Virus record (IMG/VR): IMGVR_UViG_3300008108_000057
Coordinates: 1-64,000 of that record
Length of the DNA stretch: 64,000 nt
Origin: a virus
Reading direction: 5' to 3' (one strand)
Both the position numbers and the translations under genes were made by a program. Shown here one piece after another: positions 3,866 to 36,654 of the stretch (position 1 is its first letter; each line of letters starts with the position of its first letter). The notes under the pieces are model-generated. The model saw nothing but the letters and a program-made list of their open reading frames with translations, ran no database searches and was not told the origin of the DNA.

Positions 3866-4897
3866 ATGAAATTCAAAAAAGTATTAGCAGCATCCTTCCT
3901 ATTTCTCTCTACGGTTGTATCAGCAGCAGAATTTACTGGTGCAGGTGCAACCTTTCCTTTCCCAATCTATGCTAAGTGGGCTGAAGCATACAAAGCACAA
4001 ACTGGCATTGGTCTAAACTATCAATCAATCGGTTCTGGTGGTGGTATTCGTCAAATCAAAGCCAAGACAGTTGACTTTGGCGCAAGTGATATGCCATTGA
4101 AGCAAGACGAATTAGATAAAGAAGGACTGATGCAGTTTCCTGCAATCATCGGTGGTGTTGTGCCTGTATTTAATCTAGATGGTATTGAATCGGGCAAACT
4201 AAAACTCACACCTGAGATTATTGCAAATATTCATTTAGGTAAAATTACAAAATGGAATGATAAAGCAATTGCAGAAATCAATCCTGGTGTTAATCTACCT
4301 GCAATGAATATTACTGTTGTGCATCGTGCAGATGGTTCAGGGACTACATTTATCTGGACAAACTTTTTAGGCAAAGCCAATGCAGAATTTGCCAAAGCAG
4401 TAGGTGAAGGTACAGCAGTTAAATGGCCAGTGGGTGTAGGCGGTAAAGGCAATGAAGGTGTTGCAGCACAAGTACAAAGACTGAAAGGTGCGTTTGGTTA
4501 TGTTGAATATGCATATGCAAAGAGAAATAAAATTCCTTATGCATCACTAAAAAATCGTGATGGTAATTTTGTATCACCTGATGATTCTACATTCAAAGCA
4601 GCAGCCGCAAATGCAGATTGGAAAAATGCACCAGGTATGTATTTGTTACTCACATGGCAAACAGGTAAGGATGCTTGGCCAGCAACAGGTGCAAGTTTCA
4701 TTCTTATGCACAAGCAACAAGCAGATACACTAACAGGTCGTGCAGTTCTCAAATTCTTTGATTGGTCATACAAGAATGGTGCTCAGATGGCAACTGAACT
4801 AGAATATGTTCATATGCCACAAGACGTAATCAAACTTGTACAAGACAACTGGCGTAAGGATCTAAAAGGTCCTGACGGTAACCCAATCTGGAAGTGA
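3866..4897 (+). CDS. pstS: Phosphate ABC transporter substrate-binding protein PstS
   Basis: 343-aa periplasmic phosphate-binding protein. The ATG at 3866 is chosen because an AAAGGAGAT precedes it and the protein then begins with a signal peptide (MKFKKVLAASFLFLSTVVSA, cleavage before AEF). Family blocks follow: GAGATFPFP, IGSGGGIRQI, DFGASDMPL, and later HRADGSGTTF, which line the phosphate site. The length is typical for PstS. The phage carries no other Pst component here, so the protein would feed the host PstCAB transporter. Eight bases downstream lies an outer-membrane phosphate porin, so the pair covers both envelope barriers. pstS is a known auxiliary gene in marine T4-like phages. 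Confidence 0.95.
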   Translation: MKFKKVLAASFLFLSTVVSAAEFTGAGATFPFPIYAKWAEAYKAQTGIGLNYQSIGSGGGIRQIKAKTVDFGASDMPLKQDELDKEGLMQFPAIIGGVVPVFNLDGIESGKLKLTPEIIANIHLGKITKWNDKAIAEINPGVNLPAMNITVVHRADGSGTTFIWTNFLGKANAEFAKAVGEGTAVKWPVGVGGKGNEGVAAQVQRLKGAFGYVEYAYAKRNKIPYASLKNRDGNFVSPDDSTFKAAAANADWKNAPGMYLLLTWQTGKDAWPATGASFILMHKQQADTLTGRAVLKFFDWSYKNGAQMATELEYVHMPQDVIKLVQDNWRKDLKGPDGNPIWK

Positions 4898-4904
4898 GGA
4901 CAAA

Positions 4905-6311
4905 ATGAAACTATTTAAAAAACTTTCTATCGTAGTTGCACTAGCCGCAGTAATTCCTGCATATGCTGATGAGTATAAAGAAACATTGAATATTCTCAGA
5001 GAGAAGAATGTAATCACTCAAAAAGAATATGAATCAAAACTCAAAGCATATGAAGAAAGAGAAGAAAACAAAAAGTTTGCAGAACAGCGAATTGACAAAG
5101 ACGTTAGCGATTCAGTCAAATATAGACAAGCCAGAGCAAACGATGGTTCAGTCACAGAAAATGGAATCGGACTTAAATCAAAAGATGGTAACAACACCAT
5201 TCAATTTACAGGTCGATTACATATGGACTATCGACAGTACACACCAAATTACGGTGTCGGTCAAACCACGGATTCGTATCAAAACGTAGCAGAGATGCGC
5301 CGTGGTAGATTTGGTGTTCGTGGACAATTCGCAAAAGACATCAAATATGAATTCTCTGGTAACTTTGGTAATGATGTCGGTGCAGCATCTTCATCAACCA
5401 CAATGGATGTTGCATGGGTAAACTATGCAGCCAATCCAGAACTACAATACCAATTCGGTTTATTCAAGATGCCATTCAGTCTTGAGCAACTGCAAAGTTC
5501 CAACAATCTTGATATGATGGAGCGTAGTTTGATTGGTCAAGTTGAAGGTGAATTTATTCCTGGTAAAGAAACTGGTTTTATGATTCACGGTATTCCTAAG
5601 CCTGGTTTGACATACGCTATTGCAGCAAGTCGTGGTCGTGCTAACAAAGACGCTGTGTCGGATGGATTTGATTATATTGGCCGTGTGACTACAAACATTG
5701 CTGAACTACAAGGTAGCAAAGCATATACACTACACTTAGGTGCTGCATATAGTACAGGTGAAATCAAAGGTGGTGTTGCACCAGCAAGTGGCAGAACAGA
5801 AGCACGTTCACAAAATGCTTGGTTCACTGGCTCTGCATTAGGTGGTGTAACTGAGAGAACCCGTCAAGGCCTTGAAGCAGCATTTGCATATAATGCTTTG
5901 AAAGTACAAGCAGAACAATTTAATTTCATATATGATCCTACAACAGGAAACAATCAAGAAATTAAAGGCTATTATGTTCTTGCAGCATACAATCTGACTG
6001 GTGAATCATATAACTACAAAGATGGTGTATTTGGTGCAATCAAACCTGCTAATCCTTTAGACAAAGGTGGTAAAGGTGCCGTGCAAGTCAATGTGCGTAT
6101 GAGTGAGTTTGATGCCAGCAATATCACAGTTGCTACTGGTAAATCAAATCGTGCTACTGCCATGACCTATGGTATCACATGGTTTGTTACCGATAATATG
6201 CGTTTCATGGTGAACTATGTTGACACTAAATTTGATGCACTTGTAGGTAGCTCAGGTAGCCGTGTGAATGGTGACCGTGCTATTATGTTTAGAAGCCAAC
6301 TAAACTTCTAA
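4905..6311 (+). CDS. Phosphate-selective porin (OprO/OprP-like outer-membrane protein)
   Basis: 468 aa with a signal peptide (MKLFKKLSIVVALAAVIPAYA), a helical segment with KNVITQKEYE and KAYEEREENKKF, then a long beta-barrel-type domain from about residue 95 (IQFTGRLHMDYRQY onwards). It ends in Phe (RSQLNF), the usual C-terminal signal for outer-membrane barrel insertion. The architecture matches the OprO/OprP family (PF07396), trimeric anion channels for phosphate. It directly follows pstS and was probably acquired with it. I would expect PhoB or late phage control, but no promoter is visible between the two genes. A general porin is the main alternative. Confidence 0.8.
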   Translation: MKLFKKLSIVVALAAVIPAYADEYKETLNILREKNVITQKEYESKLKAYEEREENKKFAEQRIDKDVSDSVKYRQARANDGSVTENGIGLKSKDGNNTIQFTGRLHMDYRQYTPNYGVGQTTDSYQNVAEMRRGRFGVRGQFAKDIKYEFSGNFGNDVGAASSSTTMDVAWVNYAANPELQYQFGLFKMPFSLEQLQSSNNLDMMERSLIGQVEGEFIPGKETGFMIHGIPKPGLTYAIAASRGRANKDAVSDGFDYIGRVTTNIAELQGSKAYTLHLGAAYSTGEIKGGVAPASGRTEARSQNAWFTGSALGGVTERTRQGLEAAFAYNALKVQAEQFNFIYDPTTGNNQEIKGYYVLAAYNLTGESYNYKDGVFGAIKPANPLDKGGKGAVQVNVRMSEFDASNITVATGKSNRATAMTYGITWFVTDNMRFMVNYVDTKFDALVGSSGSRVNGDRAIMFRSQLNF

Positions 6312-14902: not shown

Positions 14903-15310
14903 CACACTATTCATCTAGAAGTGGCAAAGGCGACGAAGAAACTAAGATACCGCTGGTCGGTAACGTAGGTGAGAATCCTACATAGTGTGTACCGTATTGT
15001 TGTATGAAGTTGACTGAAAGGTGTTCTGGACGGCGGTTCGATTCCGCCCAGCTCCACCAGAAGTGTTGTTTAGGGTGATATGTAAGAGTTTAACAAGACT
15101 CTAAGGATTGGAATTCCCGACCTGTGAACAGCAGGACACTTCTGATGGGGCTGACCTGGTTTCGACAGGGCAATGAGTAAAGAGATGGACAACACGGTAG
15201 GCGATGACCGTAAATCAAGCAAATCTATAAACGCAAATGATGAGCGTTTCGCACTAGCCGCTTAAGCTAGTTGGGGTTTTACCAGTTGTCCTTATTACCC
15301 AATCAACTGG
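14903..15310 (+). ncRNA. ssrA: Circularly permuted (two-piece) tmRNA, tag ANDERFALAA
   Basis: The acceptor piece (about 14903-15059) comes first: a T arm GGCGG-TTCGATT-CCGCC at 15032-15048, then CAGCTCC, discriminator A and CCA at 15057-15059. The coding piece (15147 to about 15310) follows and starts GGGGCTG, which pairs with CAGCTCC over 7 bp including the G3-U70 wobble recognised by alanyl-tRNA synthetase. The tag frame is 15233-15265, ANDERFALAA then TAA, with the stop inside a hairpin (ACTAGC/GCTAGT). An H-type pseudoknot follows (TTGGG 15271-15275 with CCCAA 15298-15302; CCAGTTG with CAACTGG). The 87-base spacer begins and ends with complementary AGAAGTG/CACTTCT, extending the acceptor stem for processing. 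It would rescue stalled ribosomes with SmpB. Confidence 0.93.
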
Positions 15311-15323
15311 TTTGAGATTAATT

Positions 15324-15331
15324 TTTAAATA
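15324..15331 (+). promoter_or_regulatory. Late-promoter-like TTTAAATA (candidate)
   Basis: An AT-rich TTTAAATA, two changes from TATAAATA, sits 12 bases before the ATG at 15344 and just after the tmRNA coding piece. It is the only promoter-like element for that gene, but the match is imperfect. Confidence 0.3.
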
Positions 15332-16021: not shown

Positions 16022-16044
16022 ATGATTATCATGATTTTCACTAC

Positions 16045-16074
16045 TTGACAAATCCCATCTAGTCAATATATAAT
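16045..16074 (+). promoter_or_regulatory. Sigma70-type promoter for pqqA and rubrerythrin
   Basis: A perfect TTGACA (16045-16050) and a perfect TATAAT (16069-16074) are separated by 18 bases. This is the strongest host-type promoter I see in the window. It is followed by a leader hairpin and the pqqA ribosome site. Confidence 0.75.
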
Positions 16075-16078
16075 CTTA

Positions 16079-16105
16079 GTCGTAACATTTTGTTGCGACA
16101 TTTTT
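16079..16105 (+). promoter_or_regulatory. Leader hairpin with U tract before pqqA
   Basis: GTCGTAAC (16079-16086) pairs with GTTGCGAC (16092-16099), an 8-bp stem with one G-U pair and a 5-base loop, followed by ATTTTT. It begins about at the predicted transcript start, so it may protect the 5' end of the message or act as a weak attenuator. Confidence 0.5.
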
Positions 16106-16116
16106 AGGAGACTACT

Positions 16117-16191
16117 ATGACTTGGATGACACCACAAGCAAACGATATGCGTTTTGGTTTTGAAATCACAATGTATATTGCGAATCGATAA
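16117..16191 (+). CDS. pqqA: PqqA, precursor peptide of pyrroloquinoline quinone
   Basis: A 24-aa peptide beginning MTWMTP and ending in GFEITMYIANR. Bacterial PqqA peptides (about 23-24 aa) have the same GFE[VI]TMY core, with Glu and Tyr spaced E-x-x-x-Y; these two residues are cross-linked by the radical-SAM enzyme PqqE with the chaperone PqqD and become PQQ. Here they are Glu16 and Tyr20. A TAGGAG at 16105-16110 precedes the ATG. No pqqB-E genes are in the window, so the peptide must feed the host pathway. PQQ is the cofactor of methanol and glucose dehydrogenases. The rubrerythrin gene follows 12 bases later. Confidence 0.92.
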   Translation: MTWMTPQANDMRFGFEITMYIANR

Positions 16192-16203
16192 TTAGGAGAT
16201 ACT

Positions 16204-16725: not shown

Positions 16726-16998
16726 ATGAGTAATCTTACACCTTTTGAAATTCGTCTTGAACTTTTAAGAATGGCGAAAGAACTTTTGTTAGAGGAATAT
16801 CATTCTAACAAAGATCGACTTCAACAAGAATGGCATGTAAAGGTAGAGTCTGCAAAACTAAACGGACAACCAATACCTGATCATCCAGCATATCCAACAT
16901 ATCCCACAGAAAACGAAATTATTACCAAGGCACAGTCCTTGAACGGTTTTGTTTCAAACATCACAACAGAAAAGACTACTAGCAAAAAGTCTACCTGA
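16726..16998 (+). CDS. Conserved small phage protein, 90 aa
   Basis: Starts MSNLTPFEIRLELLRMAKEL, a helical segment, then WHVKVESAKLNGQPIPDHPAYP and a helix ITKAQSLNGFVSN with a Lys/Thr tail. I recall this protein, with the same opening words, in many T4-like aquatic phages; its function is unknown. A strong AAGGAG precedes the ATG. A late promoter and an 85-base leader upstream suggest high late expression, and a UUCG hairpin follows it. Confidence 0.7.
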   Translation: MSNLTPFEIRLELLRMAKELLLEEYHSNKDRLQQEWHVKVESAKLNGQPIPDHPAYPTYPTENEIITKAQSLNGFVSNITTEKTTSKKST

Positions 16999-33822: not shown

Positions 33823-36654
33823 ATGGCAACAGATAAAAAGACCTCGATATTAATACCATCGCAGCTCCCTGAGTTCATCAGGGACAATCCTGACTATTCT
33901 AAATTTGTTGAGTTTCTTAAAGCATACTATGAATGGATGGAACAGAACGGTCAAGCTTTGGATCGTTCAAAAAATCTATTGAGCTATAAAGATGTTGATG
34001 AAACGACAAATGAATTTATTGATTATTTTGTTAATGATTTTCTTCCGTATTTTCCAGAAGATGCATTAATAGACAAAAGAAAAGCAATAAAAATTGCTCG
34101 TCAATTATATAAAGCAAAAGGAACACCAGCATCGTATAGTTTTCTATTCAGAGTTCTCTATGATTCTGATTTTGAATATTTCAATACATATGATTCTGTT
34201 CTTAAAGCATCTGATGGTGCTTGGTATGTTGCGAAAAGTGTTCGTTTAGCTTCTGATGATCCAAACTTTCTTGGCACAAAAAATCTTAGATTATTTGGTG
34301 AAACATCAAAAACAATCGCTACAATTGAAAATGCTGTACTAGCAAATACAAGAACAGAAATTTATATATCAAATATCTCCAGACTCTTTCAGTCAGGAGA
34401 GTTTGCAAAAATTGTTGATGCGTTCAATCAACCAGTATTGTTTAATGGTGAAGTGCTTCGTGCTAAAATCATTGGACAAATTGGTCAAATAAGAATCAAT
34501 CCAAATTTTAGAGGACAGTTATATAAAGTTGGAGATCCTGTTGTTTTTGTTGGTGGATTAAATTCAAATACTGGAATCGGAGCAACAGCAACAGTTGGTT
34601 CTGTAACACTAGGAGCAATACAAAGAATTAGTGTACTAGATGGTGGATATGGTTATAATGCAAATGGTAATACAGACATCATTTTAACAAATGCTGAAGG
34701 AGCAGCAGCAGAACCAGCAGGATTTGATCCTGCACAAAAAACTTTAGCTAATGTACGTTTAATTATTCCTACTAGCATTACTTTTTCTGCTAATGTACCT
34801 ATAGGAAACGCAGTATATTCATTCATCAGCGTAAATTCTACTGCTAATGCTAATACAACTATAGCAAATGCATTTTCAAACACAGTATCATTTTTAGCTT
34901 ATCCTATAAGTTCTGTTTCTGTTCTAAATGGTGGTGGAGGAATTAGTGCAGAAAATCAAATTGGTGTAGCAGCTATATCAACATACCCAACAAACTATAC
35001 TTCTGCACCTGGAAATTTAGGTGCATTAGGAATATTAGGTCCTATACAAATAGCACATGGTGGCACGGGTTATGTTATCAATGATGTTATTACCATTACA
35101 GGAGGTTCTGGTTATGGTGCATTTGCAAATGTAACCAACGTAGCTGCAAATGGACAAATTACTTCAGTAGATTATGTTTCTGCTGACGGTAACTATCCTT
35201 ATGGTGGAATGGGTTATAGTCTTGAAGCGTTACCTACACTTAACGTGGTATCAACTGGAGGAACTAGTGCTAACTTGTATGTTGATGGTATTTTAGGTAG
35301 AGGAGCTGATTTCGGATTAACAACTGATCGTATTGGAGCAATCACTACAATCAATACGATTAATCCAGGAGAAGATTATGTTTCTGCACCATCACTTTCT
35401 TTAAGAGTGCAAGACATTATCGTTTCAAATGTAGATTTAAATCTAATAGTTCAAACAGGAAATACAATTTTTCAAGGAGCTAATATAAACGTTGCAACTT
35501 ATGTTGCTCGTATTGATTCTTTTAGCATACTTGAACCTAATTTAAATGAAGAACTATCAAAATTTAGAGTTAGAGTATATAATTATAGCACAACACCAAA
35601 TCCTGCTTTACAATTAAAAATATCAAATCAGGACATGGTCTTAAATATTGATAATAATAATTATCCAGCAAATTATTTCTTTGCTGGAAGTCCTCAATTT
35701 ACAAGTGGAATTAGAACGTATGGTGATGGAACAGCAAAAGCAGATGCTTCATTCCTAAATGGATTAACATTCAGTCAAGGACAATACCTAGATACTAGAG
35801 GTCAGCCAAGTGCATTTAGTATTCTACAAGATGAAGATCATAATCAATTTACGTATCAAATCACTGTAGAAAAAGAAATAGCGAAATACAGAGAAACTTT
35901 ACTTAACTTGCTTCACCCGTCTGGAACTAAACTTCGTGGAAGATATGCACTCAAGTCTAATAACGAACTTGATTTGGATACAACTACATCAGCGTTCCAA
36001 GCAAAAACTTTATATTTCTACACACAAGTAGCGGCCGCTAATGCTGCAATCAGAACAGATTTTGCAAATTTAAGCAGTAATACAATTAGCTTCTATAATT
36101 TGGGTAGCGGAGTCAACATTGCAGACTTCATTTTTGCAAACAGCACGATATCATTGTCACCAACAAATGGACCAAATGTTCACTCTGAAATTACTTCAAT
36201 TAATCCAGCAACGAACACCATTACCATAGCAGCAAATACGTGGTTGACATTCCCAAATGTAGCGAATATTTCTGCGGTTTCTTCATGCACCACAATAAAT
36301 ATAGTATCACTAACTGGCACTTACAATATCATTAATAATGGTATTTACAGCAATACTGCGTATCCTTTAAAAGACATTGTATATGTAGGAGATCAGGTAA
36401 GAGTAAACGGTGCCATAAGAACAGTTTCATCTATAAACTACGAAACTGGTAATATTGTTCTTTCTTCTGCGGTCACAGCAAACGCTGGTGCAAATCTAAG
36501 TGTGTTGAGAACTTTCTCTGCTGGTGGAACTCTTGGAAATCAAGGCCAAGTAGTTATCTATGGACCAATAGGAGTACAATATAATCCAGAACTCATTACT
36601 GAATCTGGACAAACAATTACAACGGAAGACGATAGAATCATCTTATTAGGATAA
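33823..36654 (+). CDS. gp7-like baseplate wedge structural protein
   Basis: 943 aa; T4 gp7 is 1032 aa. The N-terminus LPEFIRDNPDYSKFVEFLKA with YYEWMEQNGQAL and IKIARQLYKAKGTPASYSFLF is a conserved opening of large structural proteins found after gp6 in aquatic T4-like phages. It then has several beta modules (GGYGYNANGNTDI, GGTGYVINDVITITGGSGYG) like those of gp6 and gp8. The gp7 role is inferred from position between gp6 and gp8. Late in the protein is a helical stretch containing AKYRETLLNLLHPSGTKLRG. Confidence 0.65.
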   Translation: MATDKKTSILIPSQLPEFIRDNPDYSKFVEFLKAYYEWMEQNGQALDRSKNLLSYKDVDETTNEFIDYFVNDFLPYFPEDALIDKRKAIKIARQLYKAKGTPASYSFLFRVLYDSDFEYFNTYDSVLKASDGAWYVAKSVRLASDDPNFLGTKNLRLFGETSKTIATIENAVLANTRTEIYISNISRLFQSGEFAKIVDAFNQPVLFNGEVLRAKIIGQIGQIRINPNFRGQLYKVGDPVVFVGGLNSNTGIGATATVGSVTLGAIQRISVLDGGYGYNANGNTDIILTNAEGAAAEPAGFDPAQKTLANVRLIIPTSITFSANVPIGNAVYSFISVNSTANANTTIANAFSNTVSFLAYPISSVSVLNGGGGISAENQIGVAAISTYPTNYTSAPGNLGALGILGPIQIAHGGTGYVINDVITITGGSGYGAFANVTNVAANGQITSVDYVSADGNYPYGGMGYSLEALPTLNVVSTGGTSANLYVDGILGRGADFGLTTDRIGAITTINTINPGEDYVSAPSLSLRVQDIIVSNVDLNLIVQTGNTIFQGANINVATYVARIDSFSILEPNLNEELSKFRVRVYNYSTTPNPALQLKISNQDMVLNIDNNNYPANYFFAGSPQFTSGIRTYGDGTAKADASFLNGLTFSQGQYLDTRGQPSAFSILQDEDHNQFTYQITVEKEIAKYRETLLNLLHPSGTKLRGRYALKSNNELDLDTTTSAFQAKTLYFYTQVAAANAAIRTDFANLSSNTISFYNLGSGVNIADFIFANSTISLSPTNGPNVHSEITSINPATNTITIAANTWLTFPNVANISAVSSCTTINIVSLTGTYNIINNGIYSNTAYPLKDIVYVGDQVRVNGAIRTVSSINYETGNIVLSSAVTANAGANLSVLRTFSAGGTLGNQGQVVIYGPIGVQYNPELITESGQTITTEDDRIILLG

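Follow-up and report, generated by a model that had tools for sequence, protein, structure and literature searches.

The cofactor PQQ is made from PqqA, a ribosomal peptide; the side chains of a Glu and a Tyr are cross-linked by PqqE with PqqD, and trimming and oxidation then yield PQQ. Synthesis uses up one PqqA peptide per cofactor molecule.

Viral PqqA as such is already known; it was reported in 2020 for VP_266 from Lake Baikal (PMC7678222). As in the locus described here, PqqA is found there in a T4-like phage, assigned in that paper to Methylophilaceae, and support of PQQ-dependent methanol oxidation was proposed. In contrast to the present locus, pqqA of VP_266 lies beside a methanol dehydrogenase gene, and the case is a single report without an operator or a survey. 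By analogy, the closest regulatory parallel is provided by cyanophages with genes under Pho boxes of the host (PMC10976474 and studies cited in it), where an auxiliary gene likewise has an operator taken from a two-component regulon of the host; the cyanophage genes serve phosphate uptake, whereas a cofactor-precursor peptide and a putative PQQ regulon are concerned here. Two-component control of PQQ or methanol dehydrogenase genes is described in Pseudomonas, where AgmR/ErbR control the pqq genes and AgmR is of the LuxR type (PMC12997753), and in Methylomicrobium, where MxaY/MxaB control methanol dehydrogenase (PMC5018670). Unlike these systems, the dyad described below is matched to no described binding site, and the regulator proposed in OM43 is a candidate. 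The present results go beyond the 2020 report in the breadth of occurrence, in the travelling of pqqA without pathway genes and in the host operator.

The window, a stretch of 64,000 nucleotides from a virus record of 163,380 bases, is T4-like; it encodes baseplate wedge, hub and lysozyme proteins as well as endolysins. Its pqqA gene thus shares a phage genome with structural and lysis genes (Table 1).

Table 1. Features at and near the pqqA gene (positions in the window)
Feature	Position	Strand	Evidence
Permuted (two-piece) betaproteobacterial tmRNA	14946-15328	+	Rfam beta_tmRNA 158 bits (gathering 84); tmRNA_permuted 151.5 bits
Dyad operator ATCATGATTTTCACTAC ('pqq box'), centre about 16036	16028-16044	+	18.1 bits, 16-nt phage matrix
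-35 hexamer TTGACA, exact	16045-16050	+	sequence match
-10 hexamer TATAAT, exact; 33 nt from operator centre, class-II-like geometry	16069-16074	+	spacing peaks
Leader hairpin, 9-bp stem, then ATTTTT	16079-16099	+	fold z -3.75
Ribosome-binding site TAGGAG	16105-16110	+	read from sequence
pqqA, 24-aa PQQ precursor peptide	16117-16191	+	PF08042 35.4 bits; TIGR02107 35.0 bits
TAGGAG of the rubrerythrin gene	16193-16198		
Rubrerythrin, 144 aa	16204-16638	+	PF02915 95 bits
90-aa protein	16726-16998	+	no Pfam/PHROG match

The product of the gene (MTWMTPQANDMRFGFEITMYIANR, 24 aa) is confirmed by profile comparison as a full-length PqqA. It exceeds the gathering cut-off of 21.1 bits for PF08042 (profile positions 1-19 of 19) and the equivalog cut-off of 20 for TIGR02107 (positions 1-21 of 21), and it contains the GFEITMY core with Glu and Tyr in the spacing E-x-x-x-Y. 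An earlier note on this DNA had claimed a PqqA peptide from this core and spacing, and had named a PF08042 search as the check, with absence of profile similarity counting against the claim; the search is positive and the claim is borne out by both curated profiles. This is the sole PqqA match in the whole record. The phage peptide matches host PqqA over its full length; in contrast to the host gene, the phage copy stands alone, without pqqBCDE.

The peptide is closer to PqqA of Burkholderiales (e.g. Limnobacter, Comamonadaceae) than to that of Methylophilaceae, and its C-terminal end, DMRFGFEITMYIANR, is seen likewise in several Burkholderiales. The phage also encodes a tmRNA, whose tag is ANDERFALAA according to ARAGORN. 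Since this tmRNA is of the beta type, the host is probably a betaproteobacterium. The closest host tmRNAs match at about 79% and over part of the gene; tmRNA similarity yielded no host genus, and most of the best-matching genomes have no PqqA. The term methylophage is likely to apply to the phage family; for this phage it is not proved, because the peptide end is Burkholderiales-like and the tmRNA is betaproteobacterial in general only.

A strong promoter, a leader hairpin and a ribosome-binding site of its own had also been claimed for the gene, and all three are present. The -35 and -10 hexamers are exact, stand 18 nt apart and form a pair that occurs once in the 64-kb window (0.05 expected from shuffling). 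The hairpin is predicted at -11.8 kcal/mol; it has structural counterparts with other sequence in several relatives (e.g. L440), and folding over all phage leaders is modest, with a mean z of -1.25 (hosts -0.98). The earlier promoter reading was nevertheless incomplete, as it overlooked a host-type PQQ operator that adjoins the -35 box on its 5' side and precedes the predicted transcription start by about 45 nt.

The rubrerythrin gene starts 12 nt 3' of pqqA and is probably co-transcribed with it. Rubrerythrin homologues also occur close to pqqA in L072, in L089 and, within the second scan set described below, in about 25 loci. The 90-aa protein encoded further downstream has conserved counterparts close to pqqA in some 50 viral loci. 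In several relatives a sequence resembling an intrinsic terminator lies directly 3' of pqqA, and in several isolates pqqA is oriented opposite to its flanking genes.

Two scans of IMG/VR with degenerate DNA patterns for the 24-aa peptide (at least 120 and at least 119 contigs) together place pqqA in at least 231 contigs, which may be redundant and some of which may be host-derived. All 120 listed contigs of the first scan encode a complete PqqA of 23-25 residues, as do 107 of the 111 new contigs listed in the second; the other four have no start found by script, for three of these owing to a match within about 50 bases of a contig or locus edge. Conservation of GFE[VI]TMY in these sets arises partly by construction because the search was pattern-based, and is therefore not counted.

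Independently of any pattern, the peptide was compared by tblastn with 50,697 phage records. Nine cultured methylophage genomes surfaced (four of Melnitz, and Venkman, MEP301, MEP401, MEP402 and P19250A), and all nine carry pqqA. Further phages known by name are MEP431-434, EXVC038S, HIM624-A (partial), Mg-Mtp1 and RSA-MFP1; the statement covers the nine genomes and does not extend to all methylophages. The remaining matches are one uncultured podovirus, two Acinetobacter 'phage' records and a weak match to a Rhodococcus phage (E 5), which is probably due to chance.

The gene is readily overlooked. The pqqA frame is not annotated in the records of P19250A, Venkman, MEP301 and MEP401, and in those of Melnitz-1 and the podovirus an antisense frame is called across it. 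P19250A was said to lack the putative AMGs described in the Lake Baikal paper (PMC7678222); contrary to this, it does encode pqqA. The earlier note had left it undecided whether methylophage reports mention the gene: the Lake Baikal paper does, while the published descriptions of the isolates Melnitz, MEP401/402, MEP301 and Venkman do not.

A second kind of viral PqqA (MWTKPTYExIRLGFExTMYFKxR and similar) is present in L012, L020, L022, L028, L035, L039, L047, L055 and L062. The dyad operator is absent altogether from this IRLGFE.TMYFK subgroup. Two of its members, L020 and L062, have a cell-wall hydrolase homologue.

Phage pqqA is maintained under purifying selection. When codons covered by the search pattern are excluded, pN/pS is 0.35. 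None of the 127 loci varies in W, P or R, although six different codons are used for R. Many phage peptides equal host PqqA residue for residue, including that of Methylophilaceae (e.g. MWTTPAATEMRFGFEVTMYVMNK).

Counting of lineages by shared flanking proteins was abandoned when mosaicism joined 123 of 127 loci, and for this reason the large terminases of isolates were used instead. Those of P19250A, Venkman, MEP301 and MEP401 show no mutual matches among the matches listed; the terminases closest to them belong to phages of Pelagibacter, Vibrio, Rhodoferax and other hosts. If the T4-like Melnitz is counted as well, pqqA is present in at least five unrelated phage lineages. The pattern points to repeated acquisition of a gene that follows the host and not the phage, which a tree of a 23-residue peptide could not prove. 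So tiny and cheap a gene might also be a harmless passenger that horizontal gene flow maintains without benefit to the phage. This is very improbable: a passenger would not be expected to show purifying selection, nor to recur in unrelated lineages with methylotrophic hosts while the nearest Pelagibacter, Vibrio and Rhodoferax phage relatives give no match in the PqqA search.

Phage pqqA travels alone. Each of 44 phage records has one copy over the family cut-off, and none of the 44 has PqqE over its own cut-off; a methanol dehydrogenase is found in one, a record of 72 kb. Neither PqqE nor methanol dehydrogenase was found in the genome of the present phage. The chemistry must therefore be done by the host, which agrees with the proposal of the earlier note that the phage gives extra precursor while the host gives PqqB-E. 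That proposal also fits the copy number in hosts: five genomes contain 3 (OM43 LSUCC0665), 1, 2, 6 and 12 (Methylotenera mobilis) copies of pqqA, several in four of the five, so a higher pqqA dosage is a habit of hosts too.

The absence of PqqE from all 44 records also bears on whether pqqA is a phage gene at all. One INPHARED match, Acinetobacter 'phage' MD-2021a (CAKLQF020000010.1), looks like a bacterial chromosome contig, with polyphosphate kinase and pqqBCD, and shows that host DNA or host islands can be misfiled as viral. As a general account the chance of this is negligible; pqqA is present in complete genomes of cultured phages, which already refutes it for the isolates, and in the present T4-like genome the gene stands beside baseplate and lysis genes.

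The 72-kb record (L060, IMGVR_UViG_3300025120_009955) encodes a full PQQ alcohol/methanol dehydrogenase at 34049-35731 in addition to pqqA, and resembles Lake Baikal VP_266 in having both in one phage contig; the region upstream of its pqqA yielded no pqq box. A dehydrogenase beside pqqA implies more use of PQQ, not less, and so speaks against a decoy peptide that would occupy PqqD/PqqE, slow PQQ synthesis, and save redox power or block competitors. Binding of PqqA to PqqD/PqqE is established biochemistry, and a poor substrate in excess could compete. A decoy should lose its reactive residues, yet the Glu/Tyr core is intact in all loci found, including the methylophage tblastn matches, and identity with host PqqA is common; this role is accordingly quite unlikely.

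Most phage pqqA genes are preceded by a dyad with the consensus TMATGAWWWTCATKA. The motif T[AC]ATGATTTTC.TTA[GT], which in dyad form is TMATGA-WWW-TCATKA, was obtained from 106 dereplicated phage upstream regions with a log-likelihood of 456, against 49-57 for mononucleotide shuffles. The phage loci contain 109 sites that score over 12 bits, and 69 of these lie upstream of pqqA. In a held-out test the dyad exceeded 10 bits in 39 of 64 dereplicated loci of the second scan, compared with 1.3% of 2,791 control windows drawn from the same loci. A good dyad is missing from roughly one to two fifths of the phage pqqA genes, including that of MEP401. With a symmetric matrix, the operator described here is the top site of the entire 163-kb phage genome.

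The same operator is found at host PQQ promoters. With a matrix made from phage sites only, the three highest scores in the complete OM43 genome fall at sites in front of pqqA, in front of a tandem pair of pqqA genes, and in front of the pqqB gene of pqqBCDE. In Methylopumilus and Methylophilus methylotrophus, pqqA and pqqB have exact or near-exact sites upstream; such sites also precede pqqA in Methylotenera and an xoxJ-like gene in Methylophilus, and a few further near-matches occur at unrelated places. In Methylophilaceae hosts the dyad is about 110-145 nt upstream of pqqA, and Methylophaga has a variant, TCAGGAAAATCCTGAG. These sequence comparisons show that phage pqqA and host PQQ-biosynthesis promoters have an operator in common. 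The dyad resembles a Fur box, but that reading was rejected because PQQ promoters account for the top-scoring OM43 sites. In the literature searched, no account of the operator came to light.

Activators are usually placed near -65 (class I) or near -42 to -45 (class II), two helical turns apart. In hosts the distance from dyad centre to -10 has its peak at 52-54 nt; phages have two peaks, at 30-31 and 52-53 nt (31-33 and 53-54 nt in the held-out set; 29-33 or 52-54 nt taken together). Taking the -10 element to start at -12, the dyads are centred near -65, which is the host-like position, and near -42 to -45. This spacing suggests that an activator binds the dyad.

The exact hexamers downstream of the operator, which this phage shares with close relatives (e.g. 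L459 and L440), would also suit a constitutively strong early phage gene in which the dyad is a passive remnant of a captured host promoter. In the phage set, TTGACA is unenriched at every offset. The dyad is kept, where a remnant would decay, despite divergence of the stretch that separates it from the gene; phages also repeatedly show class-II spacing, which is uncommon in hosts. A purely constitutive gene is therefore unlikely. Activation through the dyad is preferred; since a perfect -35/-10 pair follows it, pqqA of this particular phage may be partly activator-independent.

The best candidate for the activator is a response regulator of the NarL/LuxR type. Genes for such regulators occur near pqqA in ten loci, six of which also have a histidine kinase; the one inspected is Methylophaga-like (L139), with kinase and regulator adjoining pqqA at 4639-5283. 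OM43 strain LSUCC0665 has a kinase and a regulator at 796032-798380, and the regulator is 55% identical to the NarL/LuxR-type one; the LSUCC0665 regulator (796032-796670) is a candidate PQQ regulator.

In the preferred reading, which on this evidence is considered probable, phage pqqA is an auxiliary gene that tops up a consumed precursor and is switched on by the PQQ activator of the host. The host activator would probably raise pqqA transcription from the dyad, and the gene would be active while the host makes PQQ. The peptide would be cross-linked by host PqqE with PqqD, trimmed and oxidised; as one peptide is spent per cofactor, the precursor is the single part of the pathway that a phage could usefully supply alone. 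The resulting rise in PQQ would keep a PQQ-dependent methanol or alcohol dehydrogenase loaded, and active, through infection. A broader reading is evenly poised: unrelated phages of PQQ-dependent methylotrophs may convergently have taken up a precursor gene of 23-25 residues together with the host PQQ operator, nearly universally and unnoticed, so that the bottleneck relieved, under the host PQQ activator, would be PqqA supply and not an enzyme.

If these readings hold, phages of methylotrophs that are abundant in the sea and in fresh water commonly carry an auxiliary gene that gene callers miss because of its shortness, and a PQQ-gene operator has been exposed. Precursor dosage, mirrored by the host pqqA copies, would be suggested as a limit on PQQ supply. 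The cultured pairs of Venkman or Melnitz with H5P1, and of MEP301 with an OM43 strain, would be direct test systems. Viral infection would be linked to methanol oxidation through pqqA; as the dyad also sits before the host's own PQQ genes, the findings suggest that viruses feed methanol or alcohol oxidation of their hosts under host control.
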